Part shown: one piece after another, positions 4,206 through 6,741 of the stretch
How positions within the stretch are numbered: the first letter of the stretch is position 1
Layout: each line of letters begins with the position of its first letter
From: a virus
Strand: one strand, 5' to 3'
Virus record (IMG/VR): IMGVR_UViG_3300006737_000204
Location: 1 to 24,456 of that record
DNA: 24,456 bases
Notes under the pieces: generated by a model
Databases searched by the model: none
Told to the model about the DNA's origin: nothing
Seen by the model: only the letters and a program-made list of their open reading frames with translations
Program-made: the position numbers and the translations under genes

Positions 4206-4498
4206 GCCAAGCAGAACGTATTCGAAGCATCAACTCTCCCGGCTGGGATGGAGTAGATTCTTCAGTAACACATTTAGAAATGCCCAATAGCGCACAGCGG
4301 GATATAGATATTCAGTTTAAAAGATGCTTTGACTCTGAGGCTGGTAAAAAGGTTTTAGAGCATTTGCGTACAATTACTGTAGATCAACCAGCGTGGTTGC
4401 CGGGTGCTGACCCTTCTTTTGGATACGCACGGGAAGGTCAGAATAGTTTAGTGCGTGAAATTGAGCAAAGGATAAAACGAGCGAATGAGCGAGAGTGA
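4202..4498 (+). CDS. Bbp19-like small phage protein
   Basis: A 98-residue soluble protein. Its central part, IDIQFKRCFDSEAGKKVLEHL, followed by a Pro-rich loop and YAREGQNSLVREIEQRIKRA, matches the pattern of Bbp19-type phage proteins (named after Bordetella phage BPP-1), which sit next to portal or scaffold genes. No biochemical function is established. It starts four bases inside the portal gene (ATGA) with AGGA upstream, and overlaps the scaffold gene by 14 bases, so the portal, Bbp19 and scaffold genes should be translated together. A role in head assembly is inferred from position only. Confidence 0.75.
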   Translation: MSQAERIRSINSPGWDGVDSSVTHLEMPNSAQRDIDIQFKRCFDSEAGKKVLEHLRTITVDQPAWLPGADPSFGYAREGQNSLVREIEQRIKRANERE

Positions 4499-5297
4499 CA
4501 ACCAAGAAGCCCAAGGGACAACCGAAGAAGTAGCGGCCCCCGATGGTTTGATGGCCGCAACAGCTTTAGAAGAAGAAAAAGCGGTAGAAGAAGGTGAAAC
4601 CATAGAGCATCGTGTAGATGCAGAGCCAACAGAAGAAAGCGAAGAGCCTGAAATATATGACAGGCCCGACTGGTTTCCCGAAAAGTTCTGGGACGAAAAA
4701 GAAGGCCCGGACTTAGAAAACATTGTTAAATCGTATGAAGAGTTACAAAAAAAGTTTTCTCAAGGTCAACATAAAGCCCCGAAAGAATACGATACTGAAG
4801 TTCTAACTTCTGCGGGGTACGAGGCTGATGACCCTCTTGTTTCAACGTATCTAGACTGGGCGCAAAAATATGGGGTCAATCAAGCGGCCTTTGATGAACT
4901 CGCTGGGTCTATTACTGGTATGGCTGGTGAGGATATGAAACAAGTGGAGATAGACACGGCTAAAGAACGTGAAGCCCTTGGCCCTAACGCTGATGCTATT
5001 TTAAAATCCAATATTGATTGGGCTGATGGCTTGGAGCGCAAAGGGATTATTTCTGAGGCTGAAAGACAAGAGTTGAATTTCTGGGGCGGTACTGCGGTCG
5101 GGCAAAGACTTATGCAAAAAGTACGATCCATGACTGGAGATATGTCCAAAATACCAGTTGCAGAAGTTGCTGAATCTGGTGTTAGCGAAGATGATTTCAA
5201 ACGGTCTGTGCAAAGTAAAATGGCTGATCCGCGTTATGGTAACGACCCGGCATTTACTCGTGCAGTAGAAAAAGAGTTTGAACAAAGATACGGCTAG
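4485..5297 (+). CDS. Capsid assembly scaffolding protein
   Basis: A 270-residue scaffold of the T7 gp9 type (gp9 has 307), which guides coat subunits into the prohead and is lost on maturation. The N-terminal 60 residues are extremely acidic and low-complexity. They are followed by the family-typical patch RPDWFPEKFWDEKEGPDLEN (residues 61-80), a helical middle region, and a short C-terminal domain with PRYGNDPAFTRAVEKEFEQR, which in this family contacts the coat. It lies between portal and capsid as expected. The stop codon falls inside a hairpin (5291-5307), and a terminator follows. Confidence 0.93.
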   Translation: MSESDNQEAQGTTEEVAAPDGLMAATALEEEKAVEEGETIEHRVDAEPTEESEEPEIYDRPDWFPEKFWDEKEGPDLENIVKSYEELQKKFSQGQHKAPKEYDTEVLTSAGYEADDPLVSTYLDWAQKYGVNQAAFDELAGSITGMAGEDMKQVEIDTAKEREALGPNADAILKSNIDWADGLERKGIISEAERQELNFWGGTAVGQRLMQKVRSMTGDMSKIPVAEVAESGVSEDDFKRSVQSKMADPRYGNDPAFTRAVEKEFEQRYG

Positions 5298-5343: not shown

Positions 5344-5379
5344 GCCCTCGCTCAGTCTTCCAAGCGAGGGCTTTTTATA
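5344..5379 (+). terminator. Rho-independent terminator after scaffold gene
   Basis: GCCCTCGCT (5344-5352) pairs perfectly with AGCGAGGGC (5363-5371) around a 10-base loop, followed directly by TTTTTATAT. This is a canonical intrinsic terminator. It separates the terminase-portal-scaffold transcript from the capsid transcript, so the capsid gene probably depends on readthrough or on its own promoter. Confidence 0.85.
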
Positions 5380-5410: not shown

Positions 5411-5439
5411 TTTACAAGCTACAGCTTGTAGTATATCCT
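5411..5439 (+). promoter_or_regulatory. Sigma70-like promoter overlapping an inverted repeat, upstream of capsid
   Basis: TTTACA (5411-5416) and TATCCT (5434-5439) are separated by 17 bases, matching 5/6 and 4/6 of the sigma70 consensus. The spacer holds the inverted repeat TACAAGCT-AC-AGCTTGTA (5413-5430), which could be an operator or an RNA hairpin. It lies after the terminator and before the capsid gene, where a capsid promoter would be expected. The -10 match is only moderate. Confidence 0.4.
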
Positions 5440-5460
5440 ATGCGTGACAGATAACCTTAT

Positions 5461-5518
5461 GGCCTGTCTGGTTTAGAGAAATCTAACGGGCGTGGACGTA
5501 TCCACGAAGCCAGAGGCC
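5461..5518 (+). ncRNA. Predicted three-way-junction RNA in capsid leader
   Basis: Three nested stems can be drawn. The closing stem pairs GGCC (5461-5464) with GGCC (5515-5518), and after a two-base bulge TCTGG (5467-5471) with CCAGA (5510-5514, with 5514 shared by alternative pairings). The second stem is TTAGA-GAAA-TCTAA (5473-5486), capped by a GNRA tetraloop. The third is CGTGGA-CGTA-TCCACG (5491-5506). The junction strands are CGGG and AAG. The element ends 62 bases before the capsid start, inside the untranslated leader. I do not recognise a named RNA family; the core sequence of hammerhead ribozymes is absent. A cis-acting RNA or processing element is inferred from the pairing alone. 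Confidence 0.5.
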
Positions 5519-5580
5519 GGAACTCCCGACAACCTAATACGGCGACAAATTTAACTGGTTCAATATAGGAGCTATTAGAA

Positions 5581-6429
5581 ATGTCTACGAACCTAAGTCC
5601 AGCGTTCGTTCAGCTATTTGAAGCGGAAGTTCATCAAGCATATCAAGGTGCTGCTGTTCTCCGTGGGGCTGCGCGTACACGCACAGGTGTTGTTGGGGAC
5701 ACTGTAAAATTCCCAAAAGTTGGTAAAGGAACTGCATCAGTCAGGGTCCCCCAGACCGATGTTGTCGCAATAAATTCAGGTTTTTCACAGGTAAACGTGA
5801 GTCTTACTGACTATGTGGCTGCTGAGTACAGCGATATATTTAATCAGCAAAAAGTTAACTTTGACGAACGTCAAGAGTTGGCTCAAGTTGTTGGTAATGC
5901 TATCGGACGCCGCGAAGACCAAATCATTATTGATGCACTAAATGCCGCATCAGCGGGATCAACAGTGGCTAAAACTGTTGTGACTTCTGGTTCAGCCGCA
6001 TCATCAAACTTGAACGTTGGTAAAATATTAGCGGCGAAAAAAGCTTTGGATGCGAAAAACGTTCCAGCAACTGATCGTCACTTTGTAATTCATGCTAATA
6101 ACCTAGCTGGTTTGCTCGGTGATGAACGTGCGATTTCGAGTGACTTTCAGACGGTCCAAAATTTAGTAAGTGGAAGCGTTGATTCCATGCTAGGTTTTAA
6201 GTTCCATATTGTAGGTGACCGAGATGAAGGTGGCTTACCGTTAGCAACGGCTGATAGAACTTGTTTTGCTTTCCATCGTTCAGCAATCGGTGTTGGTGTT
6301 GGTATCGCTCCAAAAACAGAAATCAACTACATCCCTGAGAAAACGTCTTTTCTTGTAACTGCAATGCTCTCAATGGGCAGTGGCGTTATAGATGTTGACG
6401 GTCTCGTTGATGTTGTCTGTGCAGAGTAA
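5581..6429 (+). CDS. Major capsid protein
   Basis: A 282-residue coat protein with the likely HK97 fold, somewhat shorter than T7 gp10A (345). It sits directly after the scaffold gene. N-terminal FVQLFEAEVHQAYQGAAVLR, then VGDTVKFPKVGKG, a mid-protein helix NFDERQELAQVVGNAIGRRE, and an A-domain-like part with DRHFVIHANNLAGLLGD and GFKFHIVGDRD are typical of podovirus coat proteins. AGGAG (5567-5571) lies nine bases before ATG, a strong ribosome site suited to a highly made protein. Its own leader carries a promoter-like sequence and structured RNA. No frameshift signal for a 10B-like extension is apparent at the 3' end. Confidence 0.94.
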   Translation: MSTNLSPAFVQLFEAEVHQAYQGAAVLRGAARTRTGVVGDTVKFPKVGKGTASVRVPQTDVVAINSGFSQVNVSLTDYVAAEYSDIFNQQKVNFDERQELAQVVGNAIGRREDQIIIDALNAASAGSTVAKTVVTSGSAASSNLNVGKILAAKKALDAKNVPATDRHFVIHANNLAGLLGDERAISSDFQTVQNLVSGSVDSMLGFKFHIVGDRDEGGLPLATADRTCFAFHRSAIGVGVGIAPKTEINYIPEKTSFLVTAMLSMGSGVIDVDGLVDVVCAE

Positions 6430-6440
6430 GGAGAGATAAC

Positions 6441-6716
6441 ATGGCATACGCAGTAACAGGTCTAAACCCTATTGGGGGTCAATCAAAAAAAGGTAGTAAC
6501 TCAGCTATGTGGTCTTACACATCAGCCGATACTATCGCCACTGTTAATTCGGAAGGGTACTTCAATGATGCTTCTGAAATTTTGGCAGTCGGTGATGTGA
6601 TTTTTGTCTATGACAATAACACGCCTACAATGTCGATTGCTATGGTTGCTAGCAACGCTGCGGGCGTTGTTGACGTAACTGACGGCACAACGGTTGCAAT
6701 GACCGACTCGGACTAA
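6441..6716 (+). CDS. Small head-associated (decoration-like) protein
   Basis: A 91-residue soluble protein immediately after the coat gene, with a good GGAG site. It has the pattern MWSYTSADTIATVNSEGYFN followed by LAVGDVIFVYDN, which recurs in small proteins encoded beside capsid genes in many tailed phages. Those proteins are thought to be head decoration or fibre domains, though many are uncharacterised. The predicted content is beta-strand, with no membrane segment. It shares the capsid transcript, which seems to be bounded by a strong hairpin just downstream. The role is inferred from position and the GYFN/GD pattern. Confidence 0.65.
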   Translation: MAYAVTGLNPIGGQSKKGSNSAMWSYTSADTIATVNSEGYFNDASEILAVGDVIFVYDNNTPTMSIAMVASNAAGVVDVTDGTTVAMTDSD

Positions 6717-6723
6717 TCTGGTT

Positions 6724-6741
6724 GGGGGCGGTTACGCCCCC
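6724..6741 (+). terminator. Strong GC hairpin after capsid operon, weak terminator
   Basis: GGGGGCG (6724-6730), a GTTA loop, and CGCCCCC (6735-6741) form a seven-pair GC stem followed only by TTCCCT. Without a proper T-tract it may be a partial terminator or a 3' stabiliser that limits expression of the tail genes relative to capsid, as the terminator after gene 10 does in T7. Confidence 0.55.

Follow-up and report, generated by a model that had tools for sequence, protein, structure and literature searches.

A covarying structured RNA in the capsid gene leader of HTVC010P-type pelagiphages and their relatives

A dedicated capsid transcription unit is known from T7 gene 10 and comprises the phi10 promoter, a gene 10 leader with the TTAACTTTA element, and the T-phi terminator. 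5′ hairpins slow mRNA decay, since RppH and RNase E require single-stranded 5′ ends (PMC3997798). One study of an HTVC010P-type pelagiphage reported neither terminators nor RNA switches (PMC10504331). Here, our models detect a leader RNA before the capsid genes and, in many relatives, a terminator-like hairpin after them. The RNA is strongly conserved and accompanies the capsid gene in HTVC010P-type pelagiphages, a very common kind of marine phage, and in hundreds of relatives. It opens to experiment the practical question of how phages that lack an RNA polymerase of their own raise capsid production and fix its level.

Architecture and covariation of the leader

The window is the whole 24,456-nucleotide stretch analysed here (IMG/VR record IMGVR_UViG_3300006737_000204). 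Three parts make up its leader RNA: hairpin P1 on the 5′ side, a three-way junction (P2, P3a and P3b) in the middle, and hairpin P4 on the 3′ side (Table 1). The original prediction had drawn a bare three-way junction in 58 bases (5461–5518), with a closing stem that began as GGCC/GGCC. Its GNRA-capped and six-pair hairpins are present exactly as drawn (P3a and P3b), and scan and sequence confirm that a terminator-like hairpin precedes them and that the capsid start follows. The junction itself stands as the central domain. The GGCC/GGCC outer stem is rejected, as its halves belong to the better supported hairpins P1 and P4: GGCCTGTC (5461–5468) is the 3′ half of P1, and GGCC (5515–5518) is the 5′ half of P4. 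All that survives of the closing stem is TGG(T)/(G)CCA, as P2, and the match to model R1 extends the element well beyond the 58 bases.

Table 1. Features of the capsid leader and its surroundings (positions in the window)
Feature	Position	Strand	Details and evidence
Head-assembly family match (scaffold-like gene)	4485–5297		upstream of leader
Terminator-like hairpin with T run	5344–5376	+	between scaffold-like gene and capsid unit; sequence, scan
Sigma-70-like promoter TTTACA-17-TATCCT	5411–5439	+	scan; conservation in relatives
Whole structured leader RNA	5446–5546 (3′ border about)	+	R1 match 84.8 bits, E 1e-17; covariation in relatives
Hairpin P1	5446–5468	+	GACAG 5446–5450 / CTGTC 5464–5468
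P1 internal loop		+	ATAA 5451–5454 opposite C 5463; inner CC 5455–5456 / GG 5461–5462
P2, closing the three-way junction	5469–5512	+	TGGT 5469–5472 / GCCA 5509–5512
Hairpin P3a	5473–5486	+	TTAGA-GAAA-TCTAA, GNRA-capped; 5/5 pairs with significant covariation
Hairpin P3b	5491–5506	+	CGTGGA-CGTA-TCCACG; 5/6 pairs with significant covariation
Hairpin P4	5514–5535	+	outer AGG 5514–5516 / CCT 5533–5535; inner CGG 5518–5520 / CCG 5526–5528
P4 internal loop		+	C 5517 opposite ACAA 5529–5532; loop motif as in P1
TTTAAC, like the T7 gene 10 leader element	5550–5555	+	between structure and Shine-Dalgarno
Shine-Dalgarno AGGAG	5567–5571	+	sequence
Major capsid protein gene	5581–6429	+	PHROG 3437 major head protein, E 2e-47
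Small protein of capsid unit, decoration-like by position	6441–6716	+	PHROG 18004, function unannotated
Strong hairpin with poor T tract	6724–6741 (approximate to few bases)	+	would close capsid unit; sequence

P1 and P4 share one internal loop, 5′-G-AYAA-C-3′ opposite G-C-C, with the strand order exchanged. The general patterns are NNNNG-AYAA-CYY...RRG-C-CNNNN for P1 and outer-C-inner...inner′-AYAA-outer′ for P4. One lineage replaces the first A opposite C of the P4 loop by G opposite U, and some HTVC010P-type leaders carry AAAA or AGAA in place of AYAA. The CG of the P3b loop is near-invariant among relatives (C 97%, G 97%). Two further pairings were considered and set aside. The P1 loop can pair with the strand preceding P4 (CUGUAACC/GGUUACAG in the L042 type and CUCUUUG/CAAAGAG in L126), a match that is striking but lineage-specific rather than general; the P3b loop (CGU) finds a partner in a GCG downstream of P4 only sporadically. 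Where the former occurs (L042 1221–1328, L126 2383–2474), the complementarity is perfect over 7–8 bases and may represent a switch or pseudoknot.

Folding of the 58 bases yields −23.4 kcal/mol (z = −2.95), and 3 of 200 dinucleotide shuffles are equally stable, so the single sequence does not settle the fold. Relatives were fetched from IMG/VR by the capsid protein (80), by two divergent capsids (80 each) and by HTVC010P (80); each set is the best 80 of at least 600 candidates, so that counts of relatives are not prevalences. All sets but the HTVC010P one, with eight isolates added, provided 125 distinct leaders. A descriptor of the twin hairpins P1 and P4 fits 105 of these and 37 of 2500 shuffles, a descriptive result only since the descriptor was written on the same sequences. 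A few misplaced or spurious fits (HTVC010P P4, L087 and L192) were excluded from later counts.

Three alignments address covariation. Alignment A1 (34 leaders, MAFFT) was not fitted to structure; all five measures exceed those of 500 out of 500 shuffles, slid controls collapse, and 8 of 31 pairs are significant against a phylogeny-aware null on the capsid-protein tree. This null was computed with a simplified R-scape-like script of our own. Alignment A3 comprises 89 matches realigned by R1 and leans to the structure by construction; here, 22 of 31 pairs covary beyond the phylogeny-aware null (71 distinct relatives), and the 17 highest-scoring column pairs all lie inside the structure. In A3, 98% of P1 cells are paired and six of its eight pairs are significant against the tree-based null. 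P4 likewise has six of eight pairs with significant covariation. P2 is paired in 92% of cells, yet without significant covariation. Base-pair cells hold 88 G-U against 25 A-C combinations, indicating that the capsid-sense strand is the one that folds. Alignment A2 covers 33 leaders of the HTVC010P type, an independent clade of SAR11 phages, with 97% of cells paired and double changes at 12 of 20 pairs.

The original prediction had named a lack of covariation in relatives as its refutation; covariation was clearly found in two clades, and the compensatory changes bear out its proposal that the capsid leader holds a conserved cis-acting RNA. The fold itself is near certain. The original prediction's claim that chance was unlikely draws decisive support from this comparative evidence, single-sequence folding being moderately unusual only. 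To a chance fold, or to palindromes acting solely at the DNA level, we give almost no credence: the shuffles as stable as the native sequence speak for it, while the covariation in two clades, the G-U pairs on one strand and the descriptor counts speak against it.

Occurrence across phages

Model R1 was built without the HTVC010P-type clade, and it matches HTVC010P, Greip, HTVC024P, Lederberg and HTVC203P (E 7e-5 to 3e-3). Model R2, built from that clade, matches these five and Skadi; all six are isolates. Each record matching R1 has a single full-length copy, which directly precedes the gene for the major capsid protein. A second, partial match at the other contig end of G002 looks like an end repeat, an extra match in G014 (E 0.24) is at chance level, and the G019 record starts within the element. 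Two DNA pattern scans independent of the capsid gene found at least 120 and 47 stretches, with a capsid gene downstream in 107 of 120 (among the matches listed) and in 46 of 47; in the remaining 14, the contig ends within 188 bases.

Beyond these groups, divergent relatives (G004–G006) lie below the reach of R1, though their leaders fit the twin-hairpin descriptor. The leader of Vibrio phage CKB-S2 (capsid ∼40% identical) also fits the descriptor; R1 matches neither this phage nor MEP301. Phages of the MEP301 type (L082, L191, L194–L197, L202, L204, L208, L210 and L212–L214) carry a different, related-looking capsid leader that R1 does not detect, composed of hairpins CAAG-UAAC-CUUG and GCUAU-cguaa-AUAGC followed by a P4-like hairpin. 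L210 has a GC-rich form of it with compensatory changes. In a freshwater podophage from Manatee Spring (L464, ∼780–870), a P1-like hairpin, UUGG-AUAA-UCUAUUUCGAUAGA-C-CCAG, lies upstream of the capsid gene. Within the HTVC010P type, the P1 hairpin shares an overlap of ∼40 bases with a short annotated ORF (L086, 727–903 with 863–961; the same in L460–L463 and L466).

The RNA appears to be uncatalogued. In agreement with the original prediction, which knew of no named family, Rfam 15 gave no match in the window above gathering thresholds. Relaxed thresholds gave three chance-level overlaps only, in the upstream terminator region, and 11 relatives gave no match at E up to 2. We found no description in the literature, and a prior unnamed listing is possible. 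Fremin and colleagues have reportedly published a catalogue of viral structured RNAs.

Promoter and capsid transcription unit

The sigma-70-like promoter upstream of the leader does not score above chance on its own; it is conserved in relatives. Of 89 leaders, 63 contain TTTACA, and in 52 of these it starts 35 or 36 bases 5′ of P1; the distance from the end of the −10 element to P1 is 5–8 bases in 65 of 91. From this conserved spacing we infer that the first base of P1, usually a G or an A, is the transcription start, which would leave the transcript's 5′ end paired within P1. The promoter spacer is filled by a palindrome (ACAAGCT-AC-AGCTTGT, 5414–5429) kept in relatives with compensatory arm changes (ACAACCTCCAGGTTGT, ACAAACTGGGGTTTGT), and therefore resembles an operator for a dimeric regulator. 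In Alteromonas phage ZP6 (L465, ∼760–800), a near-consensus TTGACA-17-TATAAT directly precedes the capsid leader, which matches neither R1 nor R2.

A start at P1 also bears on the suggestion that the RNA is a self-cleaving ribozyme or an RNase processing site, since it would leave no upstream leader for removal. The compact conserved fold and its invariant unpaired bases are what one would expect of such an element, though these bases fall mostly within two repeats of one small loop and the hairpins are short for RNase III. As the original prediction had noted, the hammerhead core is absent; neither it nor any other self-cleaving ribozyme model in Rfam matches the window, and the 11 relatives likewise gave no ribozyme match. 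The self-cleaving motif that it had proposed thus lacks support, and we consider this class of explanation very improbable.

The likely user of the promoter is the host polymerase, as T7-type RNA polymerase (PF00940) is absent from 11 searched relatives, some of whose records may be incomplete (T7 control, 1e-109), and a phage of the HTVC010P type is reported without one (PMC10504331). A T7-like promoter reading of CCTAATACGGCGAC (5533–5546) was rejected, given that this site is CCTATCAAGGCG or CCTATAACGGCG in relatives and that the search for a T7-type polymerase came out negative. Two bulged stem-loops in ∼65–105 bases just downstream of a promoter recall HK022 putL (PMC9378689); with the likely use of host polymerase, they raise the idea that the RNA binds the transcribing polymerase and suppresses pausing or termination. 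The put RNA acts on termination by way of the zinc-binding domain of the polymerase beta′ subunit. We regard this as improbable. The RNA occurs as a single copy at the capsid gene and at no other promoter, and neither R1 nor R2 matches the HK022 genome, a comparison that would miss a distant analogue. Long-range antitermination is further disfavoured because terminator-like hairpins follow the capsid unit in many clades.

These hairpins are almost confined, in relatives, to the gap after the capsid and small-protein genes, peaking at +1100–1200 in 35 of 167 loci and at +1300–1400 in 28 of 155, the latter mostly of the HTVC010P type; they occur in many clades, not all. With the conserved promoter, they suggest from sequence that the leader heads a separate capsid transcription unit. 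Several group-A relatives also have, 5′ of the leader, a hairpin similar to the terminator-like one at 5344–5376. Against a separate unit, the window's own downstream hairpin (GGGGGCGGTTACGCCCCC) is strong but has a weak T tract. Between P4 and the start codon lie 24–48 bases (median 39), which puts the end of P4 at about the edge of a ribosome footprint. Within 45 bases of the start, 50 of 150 relatives carry TTTAAC where shuffles predict 3.75, a 13-fold excess, and TTTAAC occurs at no other listed gene start in the window.

Proposed function and described counterparts

Translation or stability enhancement, as the original prediction had suggested, is plausible. We conjecture that the RNA is the 5′-terminal leader of a dedicated capsid unit, shielding the capsid mRNA while leaving its ribosome site accessible; we hold this tentatively, with close to half of our confidence. 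Host RNA polymerase would initiate at the conserved promoter such that the first mRNA base already lies within the P1 pairing, and P1, the junction domain and P4 would fold into a compact block. The ∼24–48 unstructured bases that follow, with the U-rich TTTAAC stretch and the Shine-Dalgarno sequence, would stay accessible to the ribosome. The block may thereby shield the 5′ end of a short capsid mRNA whose 3′ end is hairpin-closed in many relatives, and the exposed ribosome site and protected 5′ end would together yield capsid protein in large, set amounts. In this scheme, the twin G-AYAA-C/G-C-C loops serve as tertiary-contact or recognition sites and may bind protein. 5′ pairing is known to hinder RppH and RNase E (PMC3997798); such stabilization, together with an open ribosome site, is the reading we favour. 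The fold, its conservation, its position ahead of the capsid gene, the promoter spacing and the downstream hairpins are observed, whereas the start, the protection and the enhancement are predicted; the leader probably sets the amount of shell protein made.

Two points count against this reading. Several relatives whose capsids are ∼40% identical (the Vibrio phage 1.257.O type) lack the RNA, and a plain 5′ stabilizer would need a stem alone, whereas invariant loop bases are kept across divergent phages. This excess of the twin loop over a stabilizer's needs makes a protein operator the main rival: the capsid or another phage protein, possibly in dimeric form, would bind the two bulged hairpins and tune translation or decay of the capsid mRNA. 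The presence of one asymmetric loop in both hairpins with its strands swapped, its G-opposite-U replacement in P4 of one lineage, and the tie to the capsid gene across different hosts (SAR11 isolates and metagenomic phages) would all suit an operator. However, some related capsid genes lack the RNA, and a bound protein would not directly cover the ribosome site since P4 ends ∼40 bases upstream. Overall, we judge an operator possible though on balance unlikely. The narrower proposal, autoregulation by a tailed-phage HK97-fold capsid protein, or by a partner encoded on its mRNA, through binding to the twin hairpins, is doubtful; we know of no such regulation by an HK97-fold capsid. If the operator reading is true, an HK97-fold capsid RNA operator has spread through some of the most abundant ocean phages. 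Mechanisms outside those discussed, such as a small-molecule switch, take up a small remainder of our confidence.

Considered as a leader that protects and exposes the capsid mRNA, the element resembles several described systems in part. As in the T7 gene 10 unit, a dedicated promoter and a TTTAAC-type stretch lie 5′ of the capsid gene and the Shine-Dalgarno sequence, respectively, and a putative terminator follows the capsid genes in many relatives; unlike that unit, to which it is not homologous as far as tested, the locus has a host-type promoter and, at the 5′ end, an RNA of several covarying helices. Like the E. coli ompA and papA leaders, its 5′ end would be paired at or within ∼1 base of the inferred start, but its sequence constraint is far larger, it carries a twin loop motif, and it belongs to a phage capsid gene only. 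HK022 putRNA (PMC9378689) similarly places two bulged stem-loops directly after a promoter in a similar length; the pelagiphage RNA differs in its central junction domain and in heading a short capsid unit with a terminator-like hairpin in many clades. Finally, the coat operators of the RNA phages MS2 and PP7 likewise associate bulged hairpins with a capsid gene, whereas here the phages have dsDNA genomes, the hairpins are two and lie away from the start codon, and their binding by a protein is putative.
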